DNA from: Diplonema papillatum | Lineage: Eukaryota; Euglenozoa; Diplonemea; Diplonemida; Diplonemidae | Reading direction: 5' to 3' | NCBI GenBank assembly: GCA_030068145.1 | Contig: JAPJBO010000316.1 | Span: 62,001 to 126,000, forward strand | DNA: 64,000 bases | Shown: in pieces, positions 48,346 through 64,000 of the stretch | How the letters are laid out: each line of letters opens with the position of its first letter | How positions within the stretch are numbered: the stretch's first letter is position 1 | Translations under genes and position numbers: made by a program | The notes under the pieces: generated by a model | Databases searched by the model: none | Seen by the model: the letters and a program-made list of their open reading frames with translations, nothing else | Told to the model about the DNA's origin: nothing

Positions 48346-48647
48346 CACTACTAATTGTCACGCTTTGCTGTTAGCAGAAAGACGACTCGCTCCGCAAGTA
48401 GCCACGTATCTTGAGAAACCAAACACTACGCAGGGTGGGTGGACACAGGAAGGACTCCAACACAAGGAGAGATCCCACATCGGCCCGACTACGAGGAAGG
48501 GGTAACACCACAGCCACACAAAAGGGGCGTGGACGACCGGAATACCGCCGCGTGGGTGCCGAGAGACCGCTCTTTGTTGAGAAAAGGGCCACCAGCTCTT
48601 TTTGTTTGCTGCTCTTTCCTTCCCTCCTCCTTTCTCCGCCGCCAAAA

Positions 48648-51600
48648 ATGACGTCGAAGCAGCTGGACATAAAGAAGAAGATCGTCGCGAAGACGGCGAG
48701 GGTGAAGAGCGTCGACTTGCACCCGAGGGAGCCATGGGTGATCTGCTCGTTGTACACGGGGCAGGTGCAAATCCGGAACTTCGAGAACAACACAATGGTG
48801 AAGTCCTTCAACCTGACGGAGCACCCGGTTCGTTGCGTTAAGTTCGTTCCCCGAATGAATTGGTTCATCTGCGGCGCCGATGATCTGCTGATCCGCGTGT
48901 ACAACTACCACACGATGGAGAAGGTGACCGAATTCGAAGCACACCAGGATTTCATGCGTGCGGTAGCGGTGCACGATTCGCTCCCCTATCTCCTCACCAG
49001 CAGCGACGACATGACGCTGAAGCTCTGGGACTGGGACAAGGGCTGGTCGAATACGATGATGTACGAAGGTCACGCGCACTACGTCATGGCCGTCACTTTC
49101 AACCCCAAGGACCCCAACACCTTCGCCAGCGCGTCCCTTGACCGCACCGTCAAAGTCTGGAACCGAACATCCTCCGTCTGCAACTTCACTCTCGAAGGCC
49201 ACACGCAGGGCGTCAACTGCGTCGAATACTACCACGGCGGCGACAAGCCGTACCTCATATCAGGGTCCGATGACAGCACCGTCAGAATCTGGGACTACCA
49301 GACCAAAGCTTGCGTCCAAACCCTGTCGGAGCACAAGCACAACGGTATCCCCTTTTGTTTCCTCGGTGGAGTGCTTCACCCGGCGAGCTACGAGGGTGTA
49401 ACCACGTATTCTGTATCAGAAAAAAGCCAAAAAAAAACGCGAAAGGACGGTGCTACGGCATGATTCGGCAACCGCTGCTAAACGTGCATGCTAATCCATG
49501 TGGTTCATGTACTTAAAAGAACTCGACAACTCTATGGCACCATAAAGTCCAGAAAATCCATGGTAAAGAAAGAAAACCAAAAATACCGTCACTAAAAGGC
49601 ATGAAAAGATGCTGCAAGTAAATAATGTTGTCGACAACGAAAAGCAAAATAATAAACCAAAACTACGCATTTCCTTTTTATCGAAGCGATACGAGATCTG
49701 CTGCTCGCGATTGCAGGAGTCGGAGAACCCAGCACAACTTAAAGCAGGAACGACCCCATTTCTTCGCAGGAAAAGCGAAGAATGAATCCACCTTTTCCAT
49801 CCGTTGCCAAGAGCTGCGACTCCACTTTTCATTCAGCCGCGTGCAATGTGTTCAAGGAAACTGAACCGCCCGAGTAGGACCCTCCGGTCATGATCAGCTG
49901 CCACCTGGAGCCGCGTCCGGGGTTTGAGTTCAGGGGAGTGGAATCATCGAAAAGCTGCGGGTTTCGAGTTTAGCATTTCTGCAAAACTCGTCGCGTGAAG
50001 CTCCTCAAGCTTCAGCTGCCGCCAATTGCGCACTACAACCGTGGTGCCCAAGTGACGCAAACAAACGAGAAGCCTCTTGGCAAATCCCGTTTCGCATTTA
50101 CCCGTCACATCCGCCGTGTACCGCTTATGGGCCTGCCGCAGGCTGGCGGACATAGTTCTGTGGCAAGGGGAATGGATCGAAGAAGGACAGAAAGGCTTTC
50201 GACCGGGTCACCGGATCGAGGACGTCTTGATGGAAATTGGGCTCGAGATGGAGGACGCCTTGTTAGACGGGGAGCCGCTCTACGGTGTGGCGCTGGACTT
50301 CCGAAAATGCTTCGACATGGTCCCGCGAGAGATAGTACTGCGCTTAGCCGAGGACTTAGGATTGCACAATCGGGTTCTCAAGCCGCTGAGGGCCATCTAC
50401 AGACTGCTCGCGAGACGCTTCAAGCTACCAATAGGGGTGGGCAGGGAGTTCAGTGTGACCAACGGTATCCTTCAAGGGTGCCCTGTATCCGTCATACTCA
50501 TCAATGCCCTGCTGTCGGTAGTGATGAAAGCGGTCAAGAAAGAAGCGGAGGGTGTGAGTCCAAAGTCATACGCGGACGACGCCACACTGCTGTCCAGGCT
50601 GTCGGAGGCCGCCCTGCAAAAGGGAGTGGACGTAGTAGACGAGTTCTGCACACTCACCGGGATGGAGCTAAACCTCCAGAAGACGGTCGCGTTCTCGACG
50701 AGACGTAGGCATCAGTCGACTCTCAAACTCCGCAGCGTGGATGCGCTGCTGCGGTTTAGCAAATCCGTCAAGTGCCTCGGGGTCCTAGTCTCGACGGCGA
50801 AGAATAGGACGGAAAGGTCCGACTCGGAGAGGGTGGAGAAGGCGGCTGCCCTGGCGGAAGGCCTCCGCCATGCGCCGTTCCGGTACGAAAAGCGGGTCCG
50901 GATTGTGCAGTCGAATGTGCTACCGGCGGCGCTGTCAGGCTGCTCTTTCGCGCCGGTATCGAAGGTGGCGATGAAACGGCTGACGACGTCGGTGATGGGA
51001 CTGATCTGGGGTGGATCCAACCCGAAGCGCGCGAGGGAGATGGTCCTAAACTTTCAGGAGAAGGGCCACCTGACGGATCCCGGTACATGCCTAGCATATA
51101 GGGTGACGACAGCGTTTTACGCGGCGTGCGAGAGGTTGCCACGACTGCTGCCTCTGATGGAGAGCATCCGGGGAAGATACGCCGAGGGGGACCTACCCCT
51201 GGGGCCAGTTGGACTGGCGATGAGGAGCATGGAGGAGTGTGGACACGTATGGGGACCCGGGCCCCTGTCTCGCACGCTGAGGAATGGTGCAACATTTGAC
51301 CCGTTAGCCTCGGCACCTTCGAAGAGGGGACATGAAGTTAGGGCGGACTTGAGGGCGAAGACGTGGTCCCGACTGGTGGCGAGGCGGCCGGGATTTGAGG
51401 GCATACAGAGAGCCGACCTGGAGCGGACGAACACCTTCTGGAGGATGCGTGAATGTCCCGCGCACACCGCGAGGCTTATACGTGTAGCGTTGGCGGGGGG
51501 GGTGAACACGGCTGAGTACACGTCGCGGATGAGGCAGGCCGGAGCTGAGCCGCAGGCGCCCAGCTGCAAGCACTGTGGAAGCGGCGACACCGAGGACGAG

Positions 51601-53712
51601 AAACACGTATTCTGGGACTGCGGAGCGTACTCGCACATACGGCGACGAGAGGCACATGCCGAGCTGATGGCAGCCAACCGGGCCGACTGGCCCAGATGCA
51701 CGCTGGAACACGGTGTGGTAGTACCCGAGAATGCCCAATTCTCGAGGCGGCTCCAGGAGATGATGGCTGAAATCCTTGCGGAACGGGCTGGGCTCGAAGC
51801 ACGTGGCTGGGTGGCCAGGAACCCCACGACCCCCTGGTCGAGAGCGAATGCGATGCCTGCCGAGAAATTTGACCACCCCTTCGCGCGGATTGCCCCGGCA
51901 TGGACGTGGGAGCGGAACAAGACCTGGGGACTACCGACGTTTTATGCGTTGGTAGCGTGGCTGTCGGACATGCAATGGACCGAGAACGGGCAGGCGTCAA
52001 TGCTGGAGCTTGCGATCGACTTTGAACTCTTCTCGGGCCTCAGCATGCCGCTGCACGGGAATGCGCCGAAGGGGGTGAGAGAACGGGGAAACGTCCTGCG
52101 CTGCATGATGAGCGCGTTGGACAAGCTGGCGGCACAGCAAGGGCTGGGAAGCTGCATGAGAGGAGAGAGGGTGTGCCCGACGACGTCGCTGTCGTTCATG
52201 GGCATCACGGGGATATCGGGTATACGGCCCAGGCCACGCTTTCGCGAGGCACACACGGGGACGATACTTGAGGAACAAGTGAAAGGAAGCGATGTAGGGA
52301 CGCAGTGCCCGACGTACCCTGACTGGACGATCGGGAGAGCGGCGAGGTGGGCCCTGCCTGCCCCACCACAACTGCACCCAGACCCCGTGCATATGCCGGG
52401 TGTCGGTATAGAGAAGGCACTCGTCACGTGCGCGACCCATCACAAAGGGAAGTGTGAGGCGTGCAGAGCACTCGTCCGAAGGGACGTTCCCACGGTAGAG
52501 ATGTGCTGCCGGCACCATCACCACGCGAACGATGGGCAGCCGATCGCGGTGTGCACAGAGCACAGCACGACGAAGTGCGGCGAGTGCAAGACGGCGGCGG
52601 CGTGTTGCCGCAGCGGGCATCATGCCTGCCGCACGCATGGCAGAGGAACCTGCCAAGAGTGCAAAAGGCTCCCTACGCTGACGCAGAGGCGACCGGCGGC
52701 ATGTTGCAGCCGCGGCCACCACCAGTCCAACAAGCCGAACGTCCAGTCAACCCCCGGACGCAACAAGAAGAAGAGGCCCTCCTCACCCACCCAGGTGGGT
52801 GTACAGCGGGAAACGCCATTAGGAAAGCGAGCGGCGCGAGCGCCGCTCGCGGCAACGAAAAAGGAGACGGCGGCAACCGGACGGGCGACCAAGAGGCCGC
52901 CACCAACGCCAGGAACCAGCGAACGACCAGCGCTGAAGAAGAGGGTGCTTGGCACCCCGAAGGAAGGCCCGATCGCCGGCCGCAAGCGGAAGAAGACGAA
53001 GGCGACCACCCCCGACTCAGGGGTGCATCGAAGGAAGAAGAAGGTACCGAGGGCAAGCAGCTCTCAGAAACGACCGGGGACCACGGGCACACCAACGCCC
53101 TCGAAAGTGAAAAACGGACACACGTGCCCGCCCTCGTACTCGCCGACTCAGTCTCTGGAATCGCAAGAAAGCCAAACCCCGCTAGCTCCACAAATGCTCG
53201 ACCTTGACGACGCAATGGCAGGTGACGACGTCATCCGATAACCTGACTTTTCAAGGCAGTGCATGTTAATCCACGTGGTTCATGTACTTAAAAGAACTCA
53301 ATGCTTATCAAATTTTGACGTGGGCGGCTTTGGTTTTCCATCTGAATGACACCTCAATACAAAAAAAGTTGTCGACAACTAACAAGTAGTTGACGGAATG
53401 TCAGCACGAGCAAGCATCGCAACTGCGATGCTGCCAGACTGAAGTCGGACTAAAGTCATGCCGAGTCTGTCCGTCGGTTTCTCCGCAAGTCTGTGTCAGA
53501 AATTTGTTCTGCGTATGACCGAGTACCAGAGGATGGAACACGAGATAGACCTTCGGAATGAAAATTGATTACACAATACAAGCTCATATCTTTCGCCACG
53601 GAAACACCCACACCATCACAGTCTCGTCCGTCCTCTTCTTCCCCGACCGTCCATTCATTCTCAGTGGTTCTGAGGATGAAACACTGAAGATCTGGCACCT
53701 TCAAACGTACAG
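48648..53712 (+). CDS. COPB2: coatomer subunit beta' (COPB2), first two exons, 3' part outside the window
   Basis: COPB2 is a core subunit of the COPI coat and recognises KKXX-type retrieval signals for Golgi-to-ER traffic. Exon 1 (48648-49344) encodes residues 1-232: LDIKKKIVAKTARVKSVDLH, CSLYTGQVQIRNFENNTMVK, VRCVKFVPRMNWFICGADDL, LTSSDDMTLKLWDWDKGWSN, FASASLDRTVKVWNRTSSVC and ISGSDDSTVRIWDYQTKACV. These are WD40 blades in the order and wording of eukaryotic COPB2. Exon 2 (53622-53712) encodes SSVLFFPDRPFILSGSEDET and LKIWHLQTYR. The donor (gtatcc, 49345) and acceptor (catcacag, 53621) join in phase 1 to give HKHNVSSVLF, exactly the expected sequence. The next donor (gtatgg, 53713) is phase 2. 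Intron 1 is 4.3 kb and hosts a retrotransposon; intron 2 runs to the right edge. About two thirds of the protein, including the C-terminal alpha-solenoid, lies beyond the window. Confidence 0.9.
49376..49530 (+). repeat. tail fragment of the DDVIK-ended element at the left side of COPB2 intron 1
   Basis: Contains gattcggcaaccgctgctaa and gtggttcatgtacttaaaag. The second part is repeated at 53268-53305, just after the retrotransposon frame. The element in this intron is thus bracketed by two copies of the same tail, as expected if a second copy was inserted behind the tail of an earlier one. Confidence 0.55.
49990..53305 (+). mobile_element. 5'-truncated non-LTR retrotransposon in COPB2 intron 1
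   Basis: Carries one long frame (50077-53241) with RT and Cys/His motifs, and a 3' tail to about 53305. Upstream domains expected from the related complete element (OTU protease, APE endonuclease) are absent, and the reading frame enters partway into the RT. It is in the sense orientation of the host gene and wholly inside the intron. There is no (CA)n tail, unlike the elements at 55.6 and 63.7 kb. Confidence 0.75.
50077..53241 (+). CDS. non-LTR retrotransposon ORF2 remnant: reverse transcriptase plus Cys/His-rich tail
   Basis: 1054 codons. The N-terminus begins within the RT: PVTSAVYRLWACRRLADIVL, then GFRPGHRIEDVL, GVALDFRKCFDMVPREIVLR with the first catalytic Asp, NGILQGCPVSVILINAL, and the active-site YADD at about residues 165-168. 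Residues about 497-515 hold a zinc-finger motif (CKHCGSGDTEDEKHVFWDC). A conserved segment follows (MLELAIDFELFSG, near 645-660), shared with the complete element. No RNase H is present, unlike the 7.9-kb element. Residues about 785-885 contain three C-x2-H-x4-C-x2-C...CC-x3-HH units, then a Lys/Arg/Pro/Thr-rich tail of about 165 residues ending AGDDVIR. The frame is intact over 3.1 kb, implying recent insertion. Its true start lies upstream of the truncation. Confidence 0.8.
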   Translation: MANPVSHLPVTSAVYRLWACRRLADIVLWQGEWIEEGQKGFRPGHRIEDVLMEIGLEMEDALLDGEPLYGVALDFRKCFDMVPREIVLRLAEDLGLHNRVLKPLRAIYRLLARRFKLPIGVGREFSVTNGILQGCPVSVILINALLSVVMKAVKKEAEGVSPKSYADDATLLSRLSEAALQKGVDVVDEFCTLTGMELNLQKTVAFSTRRRHQSTLKLRSVDALLRFSKSVKCLGVLVSTAKNRTERSDSERVEKAAALAEGLRHAPFRYEKRVRIVQSNVLPAALSGCSFAPVSKVAMKRLTTSVMGLIWGGSNPKRAREMVLNFQEKGHLTDPGTCLAYRVTTAFYAACERLPRLLPLMESIRGRYAEGDLPLGPVGLAMRSMEECGHVWGPGPLSRTLRNGATFDPLASAPSKRGHEVRADLRAKTWSRLVARRPGFEGIQRADLERTNTFWRMRECPAHTARLIRVALAGGVNTAEYTSRMRQAGAEPQAPSCKHCGSGDTEDEKHVFWDCGAYSHIRRREAHAELMAANRADWPRCTLEHGVVVPENAQFSRRLQEMMAEILAERAGLEARGWVARNPTTPWSRANAMPAEKFDHPFARIAPAWTWERNKTWGLPTFYALVAWLSDMQWTENGQASMLELAIDFELFSGLSMPLHGNAPKGVRERGNVLRCMMSALDKLAAQQGLGSCMRGERVCPTTSLSFMGITGISGIRPRPRFREAHTGTILEEQVKGSDVGTQCPTYPDWTIGRAARWALPAPPQLHPDPVHMPGVGIEKALVTCATHHKGKCEACRALVRRDVPTVEMCCRHHHHANDGQPIAVCTEHSTTKCGECKTAAACCRSGHHACRTHGRGTCQECKRLPTLTQRRPAACCSRGHHQSNKPNVQSTPGRNKKKRPSSPTQVGVQRETPLGKRAARAPLAATKKETAATGRATKRPPPTPGTSERPALKKRVLGTPKEGPIAGRKRKKTKATTPDSGVHRRKKKVPRASSSQKRPGTTGTPTPSKVKNGHTCPPSYSPTQSLESQESQTPLAPQMLDLDDAMAGDDVIR

Positions 53713-54869: not shown

Positions 54870-55600
54870 GCACACTCTCGCTAAGGGGGGCGCCGCGTTA
54901 AAACGAGTCCGCGACACACCCACATGGAAAAGCGGTGAGTCTGGTCGAGCTGGGAAACGCCTACAAAAAGGTGACAGGACGGCGGTGGCTCCACGGCCAC
55001 GAATGTGCGACGACGGTCTTGACCTCCGTCGGGGGAACAGTAGTGAGGGGTGCTTCGCGGCGAGTGCAACTCTCGGAGGCGACCGAGACGGTCATCCTCG
55101 GCATCCGGGAGCACGTAAGAATGCTGAGGCCGGGACTGTCGGAGACCGCCTTATTTCCCCGAGACCTGGAATGGGCGGCAACCTTTGTCCCGGAGGAAGC
55201 CTACCCGCAGGATGGGCGCAAGGAAAGGCCGACTGGAAGGCGAGGGTGGAGATGGTGAACAAGGTTTCAGGTGCAGGAGCGAGCAGATGGTCGCACCCGA
55301 AGAAGGCCCGCCGTGAACACATCACGCCCCGGCGAGATATGCACGATACACAGGAAGCCCCGGTGCAAGGAATGTGCGAAGAAGCGCTTACCAGCAGAGA
55401 CGTGTTGCCGGTATAAACAACACCACCATGAAGGAGACGGCTTAAGGCCGCGGATGCAATACTGCTCGGCCCACAGACTGGGGCGCTGCGACGAGTGCGA
55501 AGCTGACAACGAAGGGATCGCGAGGTGCTGTACAAGACATCACCCTCAGTTGGATACGGACCCTTACTCGCAACCTGCGGGAGCATCAGCGGTGACTTGA
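54870..55600 (+). mobile_element. 5'-truncated relic of a (CA)n-bounded non-LTR retrotransposon
   Basis: Only the C-terminal region of ORF2 remains, with frameshifts. The part at 54935-55100 (YKKVTGRRWLHGHECATTVL) aligns with the region after RNase H in the complete element (ARICGVKWHHGRVANVTSVT). The part at 55330-55600 contains two Cys/His units (CTIHRKPRCKECAKKRLPAE, then TCC; CSAHRLGRCDECEADNEGIA, then RCC) and ends GASAVT-stop, exactly as the complete element does. About 58 bases later comes the (CA)n tract. Confidence 0.75.
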
Positions 55601-55658: not shown

Positions 55659-55775
<117 letters not shown>

Positions 55776-55813
55776 GGCTGGAAGAGAATATCAAAAACAT
55801 TGAACAATATCAA

Positions 55814-57877
55814 ATGTCTGCACCTCCATGTGGTGGCCCTGGGCAACGCGACTGCCAAAAGGAAGCAGCGCGGCAAACGCAGACCGGAGACGAGGTACCT
55901 TGGGTGCCAGCGAAGCAGAAGAGAAGGCCGCAACCGCACCTCCGTGGCGGCGACTGGAGTGTTCCCGTGGTCGACGTGGGGTCGCTTGCGACGGCGGACG
56001 GCGTGGCGCTGGCCAGTCTCGAGGAAGCCGAACGCGTCATCGCAGCGAGCGAGGAATGGACAGGCGCAAAGGCGGTAGTCGTCGACATTGTGCAAGAAAC
56101 CATTGGCGGGAAAAAGGGGCACGTCACCACGGTCGTGACCACCAGAGGAGGGAGGACGGAGGCAGTGAAGGCCACAATCATCCAACTGGGTGATGACTTG
56201 GTCAACACCACGCTGGTGAAGCGCACAGCCGCCATGCCAGCCGACATGCCAGCCGCCGTATCCGGCCGAGACGCTGATGACAAGACGAAGCTCTCGGTTC
56301 GCATCCCCCGGCGATACACAACGGCGGAACAGTGGCAGGCGGCTGCCGGAAATCTGAAGGCGTACATACGGAAGTACGCAAGCGACGCGGGGGTGGCAGT
56401 CGACCTGGTCATCACCGGGGAAGAGACGTGCGGGAAACCGGAAGACGAGCGGCGGTACTTCGGTGCGCTGGTGAGGGCACCGGAAGGAGCAGTGAGTGCA
56501 CTCGAGGCCGCCTCTGGGAAGCTGGGGGTGTTTGTCGCGCGGAAGGCAGACCGCGGTCCCGTCATCTGGTTGAAGCCGGGGACACCCCTCGAAGAGGCGA
56601 TGCAACTGGCGCCGGGAGACGTGATCCGAGTGTGCGCGAACCGACGCGGACTTGGACTGCGGGTTGAAGCCGCCGGCGAAGAAAAGGTGAGGCGAGAAGT
56701 CGGCGAAAGAGCTGGCCCCGTGCTGAGGGGCAGAGTGTGGGATGTGAACGGATTCCATCCACGCACAACGGCGGCGCAAGCGGAGACATTTCTGCGGAAT
56801 GCGGGATGGGCTGATGTCACAGCCATTAGAACTCTCCCGAAGCGCGGTAAGGTATTGGCGGTAGTCAGAGGGGGCGAGCCGCCCGCGTGGGTCTTCGAGA
56901 TAGAGGGAACAGGCACGCAGGTCCTGGTCTCGATGGCAAGACACGTGGGAGAGACGGAGCAGCGGTGGGTACAAGCAGCGCCGCGGGTGAGAAGAAAAGA
57001 CCCGAGCGAGCGCGGAACAGAAAGGGAGCAGCACACGTACACCAGGCCGGAGTTTGTACGGTGCTACGGACCAAAGCACGGAGGGAAGCTGTGGAAGGAG
57101 GCCGGTACCGAAGGGGCTGACCCTGTTTTGACAACACAAGGAGCCGCAACCGCCGGGGGGGACAATGACATGGGAGTCAAGGTCGACGACCCCGGCGACC
57201 AGGCGAAGGCGCGCTCGTACGCTGACGCCGTCAAAGGTTCGAAAGGAAACAAAAAAGGCAAGCAGGGCAAACCGCCAGCCGTCAACCCGCAGGCGCGAGA
57301 AGAGGGGGTCGGAACAGAGTGTCAGCGGCTCCGCGGGGACAACGACCGCCTGACTGCAAGACTCGTCGAGCGGGAGAAGAAGTTGGAAGAGGGCAGGGAA
57401 TCGCAGAGGGTGGTGGAAGAACTGCGCGGGGACAAAAGCTGCCTGACTGCAAGACTCGCCGAGCGGGAGAAGGAATTGGAAGAGAGCAGGAAATCGCAGA
57501 GGGTGGTGGAAGAACTGCGCGGGGACAATAACCGCCTGACTGCAAGACTCGTCGAGCGGGAGAAAGAGTTGGAAGAGAGCAGGAAATCGCAGAGGGTGGT
57601 AGAAGAACTGCAGGCAGAGAACACGAGGCTAGCGAGGAAGGTGGAAGAACTCACCACCCTGTTACAAAGCTTGAGGGAACAGGTAGAGAACGCCAGACCC
57701 GGGACGAGCGAGAGCCGGTCAGCGTCGCCGCCGTGTGCACCAACGGCATCATTCGCCGGCAAACGGAGAAGGGGTACCACCCAGTCCCTGTCGAAATCAC
57801 GAGAATCTACGCAGCAGAGCAAGAGGCAGGCCGGGGCAACTAAGATCACGGATTACATGAAACCTCGTAATAAGTGA
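55814..57877 (+). CDS. retrotransposon ORF1 (gag-like, coiled coil)
   Basis: 687 codons, start MSAPPCGGPGQR, shared with the next copy (MSAPPSGGPGQR at 63864). ORF1 proteins of non-LTR elements bind their RNA and act as chaperones. Residues about 300-370 (RGRVWDVNGFHPRTTAAQAE, then TFLRNAGWADVTAIRTLP) could be an RRM-like fold, but this is a guess from pattern only. Residues about 506-630 form a long coiled coil with three tandem 31-residue repeats (LRGDNDRLTARLVEREKKLE; 93-nt units at 57329, 57422 and 57515). The C-terminus is basic and ends ATKITDYMKPRNK. There is no CCHC knuckle. ORF2 starts 102 bases after the stop, so it must be translated by reinitiation or from another RNA. Confidence 0.8.
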   Translation: MSAPPCGGPGQRDCQKEAARQTQTGDEVPWVPAKQKRRPQPHLRGGDWSVPVVDVGSLATADGVALASLEEAERVIAASEEWTGAKAVVVDIVQETIGGKKGHVTTVVTTRGGRTEAVKATIIQLGDDLVNTTLVKRTAAMPADMPAAVSGRDADDKTKLSVRIPRRYTTAEQWQAAAGNLKAYIRKYASDAGVAVDLVITGEETCGKPEDERRYFGALVRAPEGAVSALEAASGKLGVFVARKADRGPVIWLKPGTPLEEAMQLAPGDVIRVCANRRGLGLRVEAAGEEKVRREVGERAGPVLRGRVWDVNGFHPRTTAAQAETFLRNAGWADVTAIRTLPKRGKVLAVVRGGEPPAWVFEIEGTGTQVLVSMARHVGETEQRWVQAAPRVRRKDPSERGTEREQHTYTRPEFVRCYGPKHGGKLWKEAGTEGADPVLTTQGAATAGGDNDMGVKVDDPGDQAKARSYADAVKGSKGNKKGKQGKPPAVNPQAREEGVGTECQRLRGDNDRLTARLVEREKKLEEGRESQRVVEELRGDKSCLTARLAEREKELEESRKSQRVVEELRGDNNRLTARLVEREKELEESRKSQRVVEELQAENTRLARKVEELTTLLQSLREQVENARPGTSESRSASPPCAPTASFAGKRRRGTTQSLSKSRESTQQSKRQAGATKITDYMKPRNK

Positions 57878-57979
57878 CTGCCATCCGGGGCAGCAAACCT
57901 GGTCGGAGGGGGAAGAGAGGAGGAAGAAGCGAGGGATTTTACCCAGAATTTCCGGTGGATTGAGCAGACCACGCGCAGT

Positions 57980-60900
57980 ATGTGCGGGAGACTAGTGCAG
58001 GTGCCAGGCGATGGTAACTGCCAGTTTTCGGCTATAGCGACAGGGTTCGGAGGAATTGACGCGGCAACCCTGAGAGATAGGGTGGTAGCGAGCATAGAGG
58101 CAAGCACCTCTCGATACTGGGACGCCATGGCCGGCGAGGAGCTGGGAACGTACCTGGCGAGAATGAGGCGACACGGGACATACGGAGATGAGGTGACGCT
58201 GTGCGCGGCAGCAGAGGTGTTAAAAGCCAACATATGGATTCTGAACGCGAGCCGGCGCGACGTCGTACGACGATACAGCAGCGAAGGAGCGGACAGAACG
58301 GTCGTTGTAACGTACTTGCCACAGCACTACGACAGTCTGCTGCTCCCGCTGGCATCCATGCGGAAACTAGAGGAGGCGACACAGGATTCGGTGCCAATCG
58401 CGGAACTATGCATCCGTCAAGAGGCGGCACGACGGATTGAAAGAGCGCCGATGCCTCGCGGAGCCCAAGAAAGCAGGCGCGAACAGGTGCGACCCCGGCC
58501 GCAACAACGGACAGTGCACAGAAAGCCCGCGCAAGCGGACAGAGTTTCTACGGGACTGCCTGGCAGAACAAGTGGGATACCACACCAACAAAACGACGAA
58601 GTTGTAGTAGTCACCATCAACGTCACGTCTTTGGACACTGAAAAGTTGCTGGTGGTGGCGCTACTAGAAGCCGATGTCGTCGTACTGCAGGAGACACGCG
58701 TGACGAAGGTAGAGAAGGCGTACATGAGCTCACTCCTCATGGCGTATGGATGGAATGTGCACTGGGGTGAAGACGTGGCGATGGTGGAAGGAAAAGACGG
58801 GAGAATGCAGAGGAAGCCCGGTGGGGTGGCAGTTATGACCAGACCACACCTTGTAGCACAGCGCATACCGCCGGTGGAACAATCGGTGGTTGATTCAACC
58901 CGTCTCGTACATGTAGCCATAGCCCTGCGTGACGGAAAGACGGCCTTGCATGTGTTTTCACTGTACGGGCAAAGCGGAAGTAGTATGCAGGTGCAACGGG
59001 AAAGAGAGGTGCTGCTATCAGAGGTGCTGGGCATAGCGGCGGGGCTCGGACAAGTACCAACGCTGGTAATTGGTGACTATAACTGCAACACAGAGACAAG
59101 TCCCGTGCTAGCCGCGGCGTGTCGATCTGGGAGATGGGCAGATGCGGCAGCCGCTTATGCGGTAGGCCGAGGTGAAGAACCGCCGTGCACTTGCTGGGCG
59201 CCGAACGCGACGCGCGGTAGTAGAATTGATCTGTGCCTCGCGAACGTCTGTGCGGCACCAGCCATTTGCAAAGTTTTCACGGTAGCAAAAGAAGACAGCC
59301 AGTTCTACACACATGCACCGATGTATGTGACACTGCGACAGCAAGCGTTCCGAGAGCGCCACAAGCGCGCTATCCTCCCGGCCGCGTTCCCCCGGGAATG
59401 CCCCAAGCTCAGCTTGGAGAAGAAGAGCGAGTTGGAAAAATTCGCCACGGATGCGCGAGAGGCCCGTAGAGGAGGGGCAAGCTTAAGACAGCTGTCGCAG
59501 CAAGCAGAGGAATACCTCATGATGGTGCACAGAGACGGGTTAGCTTTCCCAACTAAATCATACACGGGACGCGGAGACGAAGTTGGCAGCTACTCGCGGT
59601 TGACGACTAGATATCAACACATGTCAACGAGGGGCGCGTCCACCAGGCAAACGCGAGCACGGGACGAGCTGTTGGGGCATCTGCGGATGCTGGTACAAGC
59701 GGGACAAGAGCGTTTAAGTGCAGAAGTGCCGTATCCCCTAACAAGACAGGAGGAGAGGGCGAGAGAAGCCGCACGAAGGAGAGTCAAGAAGGGCCACATC
59801 CCGGCAGCAGTTGTCGACATCGTTATGTCGGATGATCTAGCCGAGTTGCAGGCGCTCCAGAGTGCCTTGTCGTACTTGGAGGGGTCCCAGAAAGCTGCAT
59901 TCGCCGCTATTAGACGGCACAGAAAGGCGCAGTGGGCCCACAAAATGCAGGAAGCTTGGGCGCATGGAAAGGGCCTGGTCTTTGACTACATCGCGGACAG
60001 GTATTCGTCGCCGCTGACCTTCATGCGGCGGGACGACAAATCCCTGACGGCGAACGCGACGGAAATAGACGAGATCCTGCGGAGCGAGGAGGCTTGGGGG
60101 GGTATTTTCCACCGGTACGCAACGCAAGAGGAGCCGTGTTGGGACCGATTTTTACGAATGTACGATCCGATCCTCCCGGAAAGGGCTGTGATGGAGTGCG
60201 CCCCGATTACCGCAGGTGACATGAGGGCGGTACTGGCGAAGATGAAGAAGTCGGCATCGGCTGGAATGCACGGGTGGAGAATCCACGAGTTACAACAACT
60301 GCCGGACCCAATACTAGAGGGTTTTGCGCAGGTGCTCAACAGAGTGGAGGAGGAGGGCGAATGGCCGGAGGAGCTGATGCACGCCCTCGTGTCGTTAATC
60401 CCCAAACCTAAAAGCACTGGGGACCCACTATCCCAGCGACCGATTTCGGTGACACCGGTCTTGTACAGGATATGGGCAGCAATCAGAGCCAAGGAGGCGC
60501 AACGCTGGATGGACGAGCTGGCGCCAGAGGGGCTCCATGGATGCCGACCTGGACACAGTACTGAGGACTTGTTCTGGCACCTGGCCGCCGAGATCGAGGA
60601 GGCCCAGCTCACCGGGAACCCTCTACATGGGATAGCATTCGATTTCAAAAAATGCTTCGACTCCGTCCCTATTAACATAACGTTGAGACTGGCGAAAAAG
60701 TTAGGATTTAACCGAAAGGTACTTCGGGCGTTGAAGGCCGCCTACCGACACATGAAGCGCCACTTCAAAGTGAATGGGACGGTCGGGGTGGGTTTCATAC
60801 CCACAAACGGCATAATGCAGGGATGTGCAATCAGCGTGGTTCTAATCGGACTGCTGATAAGCGTGTGGATGAGGCACGTGAGCCAGGAAGGCCGTCCTCG

Positions 60901-63601
60901 GTCGTACGTAGACGATATCACGGCCACAGCCGGAGAAGCGAGCCAGTTGCAGACCATCGCGAACAAAACTGTGGTTTTTGCGGCACTGACAGGCTTATGG
61001 ATTTGTCTCGTAAAGTCGCACTCGTTTGGAACGACGCGGAGCCAGCCGGCAGTCGAGATCATGACTTGGCAGGAGGGCGCAGATGCTTTCATACCCCACA
61101 ACCCTCCACGGTTTTATGAACGGACCGACAGTTTTGATTGTCTTGGAGTGATGTTGCACGCGTTAGGACCCGGGCGCCAGCTGTCGAGCAGGATTCAGAA
61201 GCGCAGGGAAGGGGCGATCCTGAACCTGCAACGAGTAAAAAGGATCCCAGTGCCTGCTTCGGCGCGAGAGGAGCTGACATCGATGACGGCGTGCGCGAAG
61301 ACGTTCTATGGGGTGTCAGTCATGCCGTTAAGCAACCGAACGTCCAACACATTGCGCCAGTCAATCATGACGGCGCTGTGGACCGGGCCAAGCCGACGGG
61401 CAGTTGAGATAGTGATGCAAGTGCTACACCACGGGCATCGGGTGGATCCCAGCACAGCGCCGGCTTACCTGCGAGTCAAAGCCTGGGTCAGGCAGATGCA
61501 GAAGTGGCGGTGGGTCAGGACGCTGGCAGAGACGGCCTGGGTGCAAAGAGAGTCCTTGCCAGCTGGGTCTCCGCACGGTCTAATGCAGGGCGCCCTGGAG
61601 CAAGCCGACTGGTTGTGGACGAGTTCGTCGACAATCGGGTACACAAACGAGATCGGGCAGCAGGTCGCTTACCGAGTAAGCGAAGCGACGGAAAAGCAGA
61701 CGGAGATAATGTTGCATGACCTGCGCCAGGCATTGCGACGCCAGCAGATGGCAAAGATGTGTATCCGAAGAGAAGATCTGAGGGGATGTGCACACGGGGT
61801 GGATGGAAGCGTCACTCGCCATCTCCTGGAAGAACCGGACAACAACCTCACAGGGTACCAGCGGGGCATCTTGCGGTCAATAATCGCAGGGGCAGTAGCA
61901 ACGACAGGTCGGACGGGGCGTACTGGGTCATGTCCATACTGTAACAAGGAAGAGAGAGAGACGGTCATGCATTTGTGGTGGGAGTGCGAAGCTTGGAAGG
62001 ATATCCGGAAAGAGCACAGTATGGATAGCGTCAATCGGACAGCATGGCCAAACTGTCTGAGCCTGTGCGGTGTTGCGCCTCTGTACAAACACGGCACAGA
62101 TCCGGCACAGCAGCCAGTACCGCTGGACTATCAACAAGCTTGTCTGTTCGTAGGTAAACTGCAGCGATTCTTCCTGGCAGTGTTGCGCGAAAGGCAGATA
62201 AGGGATGACAGAGAGCAAGAGACATCACGCCATCATCGCCTGTCCTTGTACCCATGGGGATGGAAGACGTCGAAACCGAGGAGAGTCAGCATCCCAGCAA
62301 TTGACGCAAAAATGGTTGGGAAGCAGTGGAAGCACGGCGAAGAATTGTGGAAGGCCGTGCACTGGTGGATGAGTAGGCTGCAGTGGGCGCACATCGGGTC
62401 AGAGCACACCGTGACGTTCATGGAATTAGCCGTCGATTTTGAACTCACAACAGGTGTTCGTCTGCCCGATGTACAAAGCCGACGCATTCAACCTCCAAAA
62501 ACCACAACCAGCAAAACAACCGCTGCCCGGGCTGTTCTCCCTCCCCAGCATGAAGCTTCCGCAGGCCTGTGGGTATACTTCGACGGCGGCTCGAGGCAGA
62601 ACGGAACCGCGTTGGCGGTAGCGGGAGCCGGAGCCGTCGTGTATCGAGATGGTGTGAAGGTAGCGGAGGCCGTCATCCCCTTGGGACGTACCACCAACAA
62701 TGTGGCCGAATACAACGGCCTAATTGCTGGACTACGATTACTCAGGGAGCAGCCGCAGGATGTGGAAGGGCCGGCAAAAGTCAGGGGCGACTCAAAAATT
62801 GTAATCGGTGCAGTGAACGGGACAGCAGTTTGCAAACCCCACCTGCGGCCGTATTATTTGCAAGCGACAGCGGGCATCGGTGGATTGACACCGCGGTTCG
62901 ACCTAGATATTGAGCACGTACCGAGGAAAAGGAATGTCGACGCCGACGCGTTAAGCAACGCGGCAATGGACATGGTCCAGGCAGAGATGGGCGTACAAGA
63001 GCAGACGGTAAGGGCGCAATATGAGGAGTATAAACTCAGCGCTCTGGCAAAGAGCCAATCCCTCCGAGAAGTCACCAGTGCAGTAGCGCGGATTTGTGGC
63101 GTGAAATGGCATCACGGGCGCGTCGCAAATGTCACTAGCGTCACAGCACTGGGCGGAGGGGTCATGCAGGGCATCACGTGCCGAGCCGAGCTCGCCCCGC
63201 GAACGGAAGTGGTGTTGCGGGCGATGAGCCAACGGAGCCCCGACTCGAACGCCACAGCCTCGAACCCGTTTGTTAAGGCGCATGAGCAGTGGGCGGGATG
63301 CGTACAGCCGGAGAGATACTACGAGGCGGCCTGGAAGGAGGCAGCAGAGTGGAGGGGAAGGGGGCAGAAAACGGCTGGCGCACGGCCAACAGTGAAGCGA
63401 ACATCAAATATGATAGCGAAGTGTTCCAAACACGACGCGGCTCGCTGCTCCGTGTGCACAAGAAGGCGCCTCCCCCCGGATACATGTTGCAGCCAGCAGC
63501 ACACGGGACACGAAGCGGGTAGCCATTGTCAAACAAAGCTACAGATCCGGACAGCGCGTGGTCATCACGAGCAGCAAGAAGGAGCGTCAGCTGTGACGTG
63601 A
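57980..63601 (+). CDS. retrotransposon ORF2: OTU protease, APE endonuclease, RT, zinc finger, RNase H, Cys/His tail
   Basis: 1873 codons. Residues about 6-122 match an OTU cysteine protease: PGDGNCQFSAI (Asp11, Cys14), YLARMRRHGTYGDEVTLCAA and LPQHYDSLLL (His116). Residues about 207-455 are an APE-type endonuclease: INVTS (Asn214), LQETR (Glu238), IGDYNCN (Asp366, Asn368), SRIDL (414-418) and a final His (HAP, 445). The RT spans about 780-1090: LIPKPKSTGDPLSQRPISVT, GCRPGHSTEDL, GIAFDFKKCFDSVPINITLR, NGIMQGCAISVVL and YVDD (976-979). A zinc finger (CPYCNKEERETVMHLWWEC) starts near 1318. FMELAVDFELTTGVRLP lies near 1480. RNase H is at about 1528-1660: VYFDGGS (Asp1535), NNVAEYNG (Glu1577), RGDSK (Asp1604) and NVDADALSN. 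The tail holds one Cys/His unit (CSKHDAARCSVCTRRRLPPD, then TCC). All catalytic residues are present. The start was set at the ATG just before the OTU domain. Confidence 0.85.
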   Translation: MCGRLVQVPGDGNCQFSAIATGFGGIDAATLRDRVVASIEASTSRYWDAMAGEELGTYLARMRRHGTYGDEVTLCAAAEVLKANIWILNASRRDVVRRYSSEGADRTVVVTYLPQHYDSLLLPLASMRKLEEATQDSVPIAELCIRQEAARRIERAPMPRGAQESRREQVRPRPQQRTVHRKPAQADRVSTGLPGRTSGIPHQQNDEVVVVTINVTSLDTEKLLVVALLEADVVVLQETRVTKVEKAYMSSLLMAYGWNVHWGEDVAMVEGKDGRMQRKPGGVAVMTRPHLVAQRIPPVEQSVVDSTRLVHVAIALRDGKTALHVFSLYGQSGSSMQVQREREVLLSEVLGIAAGLGQVPTLVIGDYNCNTETSPVLAAACRSGRWADAAAAYAVGRGEEPPCTCWAPNATRGSRIDLCLANVCAAPAICKVFTVAKEDSQFYTHAPMYVTLRQQAFRERHKRAILPAAFPRECPKLSLEKKSELEKFATDAREARRGGASLRQLSQQAEEYLMMVHRDGLAFPTKSYTGRGDEVGSYSRLTTRYQHMSTRGASTRQTRARDELLGHLRMLVQAGQERLSAEVPYPLTRQEERAREAARRRVKKGHIPAAVVDIVMSDDLAELQALQSALSYLEGSQKAAFAAIRRHRKAQWAHKMQEAWAHGKGLVFDYIADRYSSPLTFMRRDDKSLTANATEIDEILRSEEAWGGIFHRYATQEEPCWDRFLRMYDPILPERAVMECAPITAGDMRAVLAKMKKSASAGMHGWRIHELQQLPDPILEGFAQVLNRVEEEGEWPEELMHALVSLIPKPKSTGDPLSQRPISVTPVLYRIWAAIRAKEAQRWMDELAPEGLHGCRPGHSTEDLFWHLAAEIEEAQLTGNPLHGIAFDFKKCFDSVPINITLRLAKKLGFNRKVLRALKAAYRHMKRHFKVNGTVGVGFIPTNGIMQGCAISVVLIGLLISVWMRHVSQEGRPRSYVDDITATAGEASQLQTIANKTVVFAALTGLWICLVKSHSFGTTRSQPAVEIMTWQEGADAFIPHNPPRFYERTDSFDCLGVMLHALGPGRQLSSRIQKRREGAILNLQRVKRIPVPASAREELTSMTACAKTFYGVSVMPLSNRTSNTLRQSIMTALWTGPSRRAVEIVMQVLHHGHRVDPSTAPAYLRVKAWVRQMQKWRWVRTLAETAWVQRESLPAGSPHGLMQGALEQADWLWTSSSTIGYTNEIGQQVAYRVSEATEKQTEIMLHDLRQALRRQQMAKMCIRREDLRGCAHGVDGSVTRHLLEEPDNNLTGYQRGILRSIIAGAVATTGRTGRTGSCPYCNKEERETVMHLWWECEAWKDIRKEHSMDSVNRTAWPNCLSLCGVAPLYKHGTDPAQQPVPLDYQQACLFVGKLQRFFLAVLRERQIRDDREQETSRHHRLSLYPWGWKTSKPRRVSIPAIDAKMVGKQWKHGEELWKAVHWWMSRLQWAHIGSEHTVTFMELAVDFELTTGVRLPDVQSRRIQPPKTTTSKTTAARAVLPPQHEASAGLWVYFDGGSRQNGTALAVAGAGAVVYRDGVKVAEAVIPLGRTTNNVAEYNGLIAGLRLLREQPQDVEGPAKVRGDSKIVIGAVNGTAVCKPHLRPYYLQATAGIGGLTPRFDLDIEHVPRKRNVDADALSNAAMDMVQAEMGVQEQTVRAQYEEYKLSALAKSQSLREVTSAVARICGVKWHHGRVANVTSVTALGGGVMQGITCRAELAPRTEVVLRAMSQRSPDSNATASNPFVKAHEQWAGCVQPERYYEAAWKEAAEWRGRGQKTAGARPTVKRTSNMIAKCSKHDAARCSVCTRRRLPPDTCCSQQHTGHEAGSHCQTKLQIRTARGHHEQQEGASAVT

Positions 63602-63655
63602 GGAAGCCAAAGGCCTGGGCCATACTCCGCAACAGGGGTTACCCATACATGAATT

Positions 63656-63816
<161 letters not shown>

Positions 63817-63863
63817 GACTGGGAGAAAAAGTTTGAACCGATCACAAAATCATCATCAAATAC

Positions 63864-64000
63864 ATGTCTGCACCTCCAAGCGGTGGTCCTGGGCAACGTG
63901 TCCAGTCAAATGAGACACGGCCGACGCAGACCAGCACCGAGGCACCCTGGCAATGGGTGCCGGCTAGCGGCAACAAGAAAACAGCCCCAGCTAAACTGCG
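63864..64000 (+). CDS. ORF1 of the next tandem retrotransposon, cut by the window edge
   Basis: Begins MSAPPSGGPGQR, 49 bases after the (CA)n tract, and stays open to the edge. It shares the first residues with the ORF1 at 55814 but has diverged afterwards (QSNETRPTQTSTEAPW against QKEAARQTQTGDEVPW), so it is a related but different family member. Confidence 0.8.
   Translation, partial: MSAPPSGGPGQRVQSNETRPTQTSTEAPWQWVPASGNKKTAPAKL

Follow-up and report, generated by a model that had tools for sequence, protein, structure and literature searches.

What is a protease of the OTU type doing at the start of a retrotransposon protein? The question is raised by a 64,000-nucleotide stretch of Diplonema papillatum DNA (contig JAPJBO010000316.1, positions 62,001 to 126,000 of the forward strand; hereafter the window), in which an OTU domain opens the second open reading frame (ORF2) of a non-LTR (non-long-terminal-repeat) retrotransposon, or LINE. 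Selection on this domain, its exchange between element families and the targeting of the element can be read directly from the sequences. The reading that we tentatively favor, at somewhat less than an even chance, is that of a target-specific element whose ORF2 protein (ORF2p) would begin with a working OTU, with read-through of a UGA codon or restart after it, and a cut made by the OTU in cis at LVGG|G. Positions given below are window coordinates, and genome-wide counts refer to the 271 Mb assembly; other copies and families carry our own labels (L010, f1966 and so on).

An earlier, sequence-only reading of this DNA had placed an OTU cysteine protease at the N-terminus of ORF2, directly upstream of an APE-like endonuclease, and this was borne out. 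When the N-terminal 180 aa were analyzed with hmmscan, the OTU model PF02338 matched residues 9-112 (E 1.1e-9, 39.4 bits against a cut-off of 23.3 bits); in the complete ORF2, the E value was 2.5e-8. Cys14 and His116 are in frame where they had been placed, with Asp118 close behind; aligned with OTUD5 and OTU1, these two fall on the Cys of DGxC/DxxC and the His of HY(N/D). Among PDB sequences, the window OTU alone matched a viral OTU (6dx3, E 1.4e-5) and OTU1 (4boq, E 0.0018), while a profile built from ten OTUs of these elements matched OTUD5 (5.5e-10), OTU1 (2.8e-9) and viral OTUs too. Residues D11, G12, C14, G69, D70, W86, H116, Y117 and D118 are invariant across these ten. The OTU stretch itself is present in ten identical copies on separate contigs, the window's own among them.

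ORF2 is a single open frame (57980-63601, 1873 aa, N-terminus MCGRLVQVPGDGNCQF...TYLPQHYDSLLLP) that runs in the order OTU, APE, reverse transcriptase (RT), CCHC knuckle, RNase H and Cys/His motif, as the earlier reading had it (Table 1). The RNase_H model of Pfam scored just below its cut-off, and the solved RT nearest to that of the window was LINE-1 ORF2p (E 1.6e-12, PDB sequences). With an APE ahead of a non-LTR RT in the same ORF, the element is, by its sequence, an APE-type non-LTR retrotransposon. The ends of such elements are also present, as (AC)n 3' ends and as 3' remnants without 5' parts in the window. A Pfam search with the 687 aa of ORF1 returned nothing above the cut-off.

The pattern of substitutions indicates that the OTU domain is kept by purifying selection. 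The ratio of nonsynonymous to synonymous rates (omega) over the OTU was 0.08 for L047-L051, 0.13 for L048-L049, 0.11 for the window element and L010 (with synonymous divergence saturated at 1.8) and 0.35 for the window element and L012, with Fisher p values of 7e-14, 5e-13, 2e-19 and 0.007, respectively. In pairs whose APE and RT are of common descent, these domains gave values of 0.04-0.10, and the linker was looser (0.35-0.92, in close pairs where the ratio was computable). Among 56 OTU stretches (some loci overlapping), 49 have Cys, His and Asp and two, both from a distant lineage described below, have Cys, His and Ile; one has Cys and His with the Asp unread, in three the match or the locus stops after the Cys (two of them host-like), and one is degraded with stops (L011). 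Twenty further stretches were taken by their DGNCQF motif: 12 are element OTUs unbroken through HYD, four are element copies that break before the His (L074, L082, L084, L085), L071 and L072 are members of a different sequence family that is partly broken, and L079 and L083 are host-gene-like. Cys and His are kept in every unbroken-frame OTU read, and the losses are found in broken copies; with the profile match, neither of the two outcomes that the earlier reading had named as refuting it was seen. These stretches were picked for their similarity or for the Cys motif and do not amount to an unbiased survey.

The earlier reading had also called the combination of domains unusual. The combination is indeed present; it is not one odd fusion, however, but a module of many families in this genome, and protease-bearing LINEs are known elsewhere. 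A genome search with PF02338 gave at least 150 OTU matches (150 scored among 656 candidates, 150/150 above the cut-off), many of them in frames of 1500-2130 aa. Sites coding for DGNCQF numbered 367 exact matches in the genome, a few of which lie in host-like genes, versus 0 for the reversed pattern. The order OTU-APE-RT-RNase H was found in full or near-full ORF2s of L047, L048, L049, L052 and L054; L087, L088 and L089, read up to the RT only, have OTU-APE-RT, with the OTU under the Pfam cut-off in L088 and L089. The ORF2 of L052 carries two tandem OTUs, with Cys, His and Asp in both. At C99 (L077) and C186, DGNCQF sites come in pairs with a spacing of 696 bp, which suggests a second tandem-OTU family. 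In the distant lineage (L050, L053), which we call the AlkB lineage, the OTU is located in the upstream ORF. At L050 (2-5701, minus strand), this upstream OTU ORF of 1559 aa is followed by an in-frame TGA-CTA and then by a 2OG-Fe(II) (2-oxoglutarate and iron-dependent) oxygenase, AlkB-like, fused to an APE. As to a possible descent of the LINE OTU from OTU genes of this host, the LINE OTUs share 21-36% identity with two host-like OTUs, and the tree was weak.

As to whether the fusion is specific to one RT clade, six LINE families among the best RT matches (L061-L066) encode APE and RT, with no OTU in the stretches read. With a profile of the OTU-clade RT, these six scored 28-42 bits and the AlkB-lineage remnant in the window 254, as compared with 525-680 for eight OTU-bearing ORF2s, seven of which had gone into the profile. 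In the RT tree, the exclusion of the six families from the OTU clade was fully supported, but their branches are long. Since their RTs are distant, the OTU follows the RT among the sampled families; the OTU-bearing ones were picked via their OTU, and OTU-less members of the same RT clade were not looked for. Viral contigs gave zero matches to the RT profile, and a search of phages for relatives gave zero matches as well. The sole OTU-profile match in viral contigs (L060) lay, by eye, in a phage capsid-like region and was taken as chance. Of note, 2A-like ribosome-skipping peptides are known from other LINEs, and a 2A-like GDIHPNPGP is found just 5' of the APE in the OTU-less families L061, L062 and L066 (GDIHPHPGP in L063). 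Such peptides would offer a second way of splitting a LINE polyprotein in this genome.

Comparison of the families domain by domain revealed that the 5' half of the element, ORF1 plus OTU, is exchanged as a block between element families. L049 is 89% identical to L048 over the OTU and 38-39% over the APE and RT, whereas against L010 the figures are 53% and 92-93%. ORF1 travels with the OTU: that of f1938 is 83-87% identical to that of f1966 and 35% identical to that of L010. In approximately unbiased (AU) tests, on groups chosen with the identity table already known, a clade of L010 and L049 is rejected by the OTU data (p-AU 1.8e-5) and one of L048 and L049 by the RT data (p-AU 5.5e-5). L052 resembles the L047/L051 lineage over its first OTU (78-79%) and ORF1 (61-69%) far more than over the RT (40%) or the APE (37%, against L047), whereas its second OTU (63-73%) and the remainder (67-79%) resemble L087-L089; a second 5' half therefore seems to have been added ahead of its own OTU. 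Similarly, L054 is 76% identical to the window element over the APE and RT and only 34% identical over the OTU. A single breakpoint between OTU and APE, for example by template switching, would be enough to make ORF1 and OTU move together, with no functional link between them.

ORF1 and ORF2 share one frame and are separated by a single stop, which is TGA in 10/10 elements read there; ORF1 frames, whole or half, were seen for six families. In three other families (L067/L068, L069/L070 and L086) the stop is TAG, in frame with an ORF1-like end. TGA-CTA, as in the AlkB family, is a known read-through context. The spacer from the stop to the first conserved Met measures 26-58 codons. In five pairs pooled, with the L067-L069 pair left out, the proportion of synonymous differences in the spacer (pS, 0.321) exceeded that of nonsynonymous ones (pN, 0.106; p 1.2e-7), and with pN below pS the spacer is therefore translated. 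Because codons 57878-57979 are conserved and evolve under selection on the protein, the ATG at 57980, with which the earlier reading began the protein, is probably not its true start; the coordinates of the frame from that ATG stand. Within the spacer, a motif [LM]xGGG falls in one alignment column in 8/8 aligned ORF2s, with one further such motif in those eight proteins, and its glycine codons vary synonymously. It is also found in L074-L077, L082, L084 and L085, some of which are broken further on. A second LGGG recurs between RNase H and the C-terminus in 6/8 ORF2s (alignment column 2083; window residue 1758 in the stop-to-stop frame) and is a possible further OTU site.

Deubiquitinases make their cut behind LRGG, the tail of ubiquitin, which LVGG would mimic. 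For an LVGG|G kept right before the OTU, and behind a stop across which the frame is open, the best interpretation is self-cleavage. Some ribosomes would read through the UGA, or restart just after it, and make an ORF1-ORF2 fusion or an extended ORF2. The OTU would then cut in cis at LVGG|G, and the cut would free ORF2p, the endonuclease-RT, from ORF1p or trim the N-terminus of ORF2p. Once freed, the OTU may in addition remove ubiquitin from the ribonucleoprotein (RNP), and processing and deubiquitination may both hold. The cleavage itself we infer; the LxGGG motif, together with the in-frame stop, favors processing as at least one role of the OTU. A wider proposal, which we regard as possible but doubtful, is that the element follows a virus-like plan, with a leaky-UGA polyprotein cut at LVGG|G and a swappable ORF1-OTU cassette that would govern both RT release and protection from host ubiquitin.

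Several observations weigh against self-cleavage at this motif. The motif is absent from L067-L070, L086 and the AlkB lineage (L050, L053), all of which have an OTU, so the OTU has a use independent of it. When six pairs were examined over the whole spacer, two were non-significant, namely f1966-f1938 (p 0.2) and L067-L069, with its TAG stop (p 0.29). The families are also not independent, because the shared ORF1-ORF2 frame is inherited. The LxGG-like motif is N-terminal to the OTU, whereas the viral PRO|HEL and nsp2|nsp3 sites are C-terminal to theirs. A single-sequence AlphaFold prediction of the OTU reached a mean predicted local distance difference test (pLDDT) score of just 35.8. Finally, a start-codon reading of the motif could fit 8/10 sequences.

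The main rival, to which we give real weight while ranking it below self-cleavage, is that the OTU is purely a deubiquitinase that would take ubiquitin, or a modifier like it, off ORF1p, ORF2p or host factors and so let the RNP escape proteasomal degradation or DNA-repair control, the GGG being a linker or part of the N-terminus. That the OTU profile is closest to the cellular deubiquitinases OTUD5 and OTU1 and that the domain persists in the motif-less families would fit this, and a ubiquitin-based transposition role of OTU/Ulp1 domains has been proposed for Ginger elements, according to passages of PMC2836005. Taken alone, however, it leaves a motif with synonymous change and a translated in-frame spacer unexplained. 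It is rather improbable that LVGGG/MVGGG simply marks the start of ORF2 translation, by restart soon after the ORF1 stop, an account that leaves the function of the OTU aside. The first motif codon is ATG in 5/10 sequences and a near-cognate CTG/TTG in 3/10, and no more than about 40 codons separate the motif from the stop in 7/8 aligned ORF2s (in f1972 it is at codon 92); yet the remaining 2/10 (f1966 and f1938) have CTC, the spacers stay open in the ORF1 frame ahead of the motif, and the conservation of three glycines would need another reason. A non-catalytic, ubiquitin-binding or structural OTU is very unlikely, given that Cys and His are kept in unbroken OTUs across families down to about 30% identity. 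Chance similarity or an assembly artefact has next to no probability and is refuted by the E value of the Pfam match to the N-terminus, the OTU matches across the genome, the DGNCQF counts and the ten identical copies.

The target of the element can be recognized from its flanks. All 12 window-family 5' ends found in the genome (up to one mismatch) adjoin (AC)n, and 24/25 exact 5' ends of the sister family directly follow it, versus 0/30 five-prime ends of f1966, an OTU family used as a control. By these junction sequences, the elements insert into (AC)n in a fixed orientation. Self-targeting of f1966 to its own 3' end was considered and rejected (just 1/30). Families flanked by (AC)n are those of the window, L010, f1938 (L049), f1972 (L054) and f2130 (L052); for the last, the 5' side was read, and the 3' (AC)n was seen on the remnant of that family in the window. 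The C-terminal Cys/His motif is found in 5/5 of these families and not in L047, L051 or L048, and we would guess at a role for it in choosing (AC)n. A strict link is weakened because the AlkB-lineage remnant at 50056-53238 has Cys/His motifs with no (AC)n within 460 bases after its stop. A GGGRCTGGR-like 5' terminus is shared by 6/7 OTU-clade families compared, across (AC)n-flanked and unflanked ones. Mino/Waldo (R1 clade) and Kibi/Koshi (Tx1 clade) are microsatellite-targeting APE elements, and the window element resembles them as an APE-type LINE inserted in simple repeats; we know of no OTU in them.

Table 1 Features of the OTU-bearing element and its neighbors in the window
Feature	Position	Strand	Remarks
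5'-truncated RT ORF, second distant (AlkB) lineage	50056..53238	+	88% identical to L053 RT ORF
3' remnant, L052/fam2130-like, two Cys/His motifs	54926..55600	+	Preceding array element, third family
(AC)56 tract	55661..55772	.	5' flank of element; after another element's 3' end
Whole non-LTR element	55774..63657	+	Start GGGGCTGG; end at 3' (AC)n (3' end ~63657)
ORF1, 687 aa	55814..57877	+	
In-frame TGA, then CTG	57875..57877	+	Between ORF1 and ORF2
34-codon in-frame spacer	57878..57979	+	5' of first ORF2 ATG; under selection as protein (pairs pooled)
LVGGG, candidate OTU self-cleavage site (LVGG|G)	57899..57913	+	
OTU protease domain	57980..58350	+	Codons: Cys14 58019-58021, His116 58325-58327, Asp118 58331-58333
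APE-like endonuclease (PF03372, Exo_endo_phos)	58649..59245	+	Pfam
Reverse transcriptase (PF00078, RVT_1)	60398..61123	+	Pfam
CCHC knuckle CPYCNKEERETVMHLWWEC	61931..61987	+	Regular expression
RNase H (PF13456, RVT_3)	62621..62965	+	Pfam
C-terminal Cys/His motif CSKHDAARCSVC...CC	63422..63490	+	Regular expression
(AC)78 tract	63658..63813	.	Element 3' end; next element directly after
Next head-to-tail element, 5' end	63814..64000	+	Sister family; goes on in L010, outside window

With a sister element after the (AC)78 tract and a third-family remnant before the element, the window contains a section of a head-to-tail array. The sister family is 71% identical to the window element in DNA over the OTU and 73% identical in amino acids over ORF2. 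Elsewhere in the window lies a WD40 gene, by eye coatomer beta'-like, with one exon near 48402-49259 and, by eye, a second near 53610; the truncated LINE of the AlkB lineage would sit inside an intron of this gene in the same sense. From 19888 to about 25000 lies a long minisatellite with a 22-bp period, of which about 232 register steps agree with a 300-nt reference. A dinoflagellate host was considered and rejected, as the dinoflagellate spliced-leader sequence had 0 matches.

Proteases in mobile elements have precedents. Dualen/RandI of Chlamydomonas, reported by Kojima and Fujiwara in 2005, is said to carry a cysteine protease, reportedly OTU-like, and would then resemble the window element in joining such a protease to APE, RT and RNase H. 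We know of no module swapping, [LM]xGGG motif or in-frame UGA in Dualen. Passages of PMC4640811 define Dualen by the presence of both APE and a restriction-like endonuclease (RLE); there was no RLE among the Pfam matches of the window ORF2, a scan in which no dedicated RLE profile was run. The same source describes the nematode non-LTR elements NeSL and Utopia-1_TSP, with an N-terminal Ulp1 cysteine protease, and the NeSL-related Togen families, which are (TG)n-specific (PMC4640811). The window element is like NeSL/Utopia in having a cysteine protease of a ubiquitin- or SUMO-cleaving type N-terminal in a LINE protein and in its target-specific insertion. It differs in having OTU and APE where they have Ulp1 and RLE as the sole endonuclease, and Ulp1 was not among the matches listed for its ORF2 in the Pfam scan.

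Outside LINEs, Ginger1 transposases and some Helitrons carry OTU domains, according to passages of PMC2836005. There too an OTU was captured by a mobile-element protein; these are DNA transposons, however, and the Ginger1 OTU is C-terminal to an integrase-like transposase. Among RNA viruses, the marafivirus OTU-type PRO/DUB (deubiquitinase) is described in parts of PMC8348309 as cutting a polyprotein junction that mimics LRGG, LxG[G/A], and arterivirus PLP2 and turnip yellow mosaic virus (TYMV) PRO as processing polyproteins (PMC8348309 and passages of PMC3968130). The window element would share with tymovirus/marafivirus PRO-DUB and arterivirus PLP2 an OTU-type protease within a replication (poly)protein, here predicted from sequence; those viruses differ in their RNA genomes, their other replication enzymes and the sites C-terminal to the protease noted above. 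No report of an OTU in a non-LTR element was found in the part of the open-access literature covered (titles, abstracts and passages of the likeliest papers). Protease-bearing mobile elements are thus already known (Ulp1 in NeSL/Utopia, OTU in Ginger/Helitrons and, reportedly, a cysteine protease in Dualen). To our knowledge, what is apparently new is an OTU clade that combines APE with an (AC)n target, swapping and doubling of the OTU, and a junction of stop, LxGGG and OTU.

Why some transposons bear ubiquitin-cleaving proteases becomes a testable question here. This genome offers many intact-frame families with exchanged, doubled and distinct OTUs and one candidate cleavage motif, such that the OTU can be tried against the substrate presumed for it, with the motif-less families as natural controls. 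If the favored reading is true, polyprotein self-processing, known in retroviruses, LTR elements and RNA viruses, would extend to LINEs.

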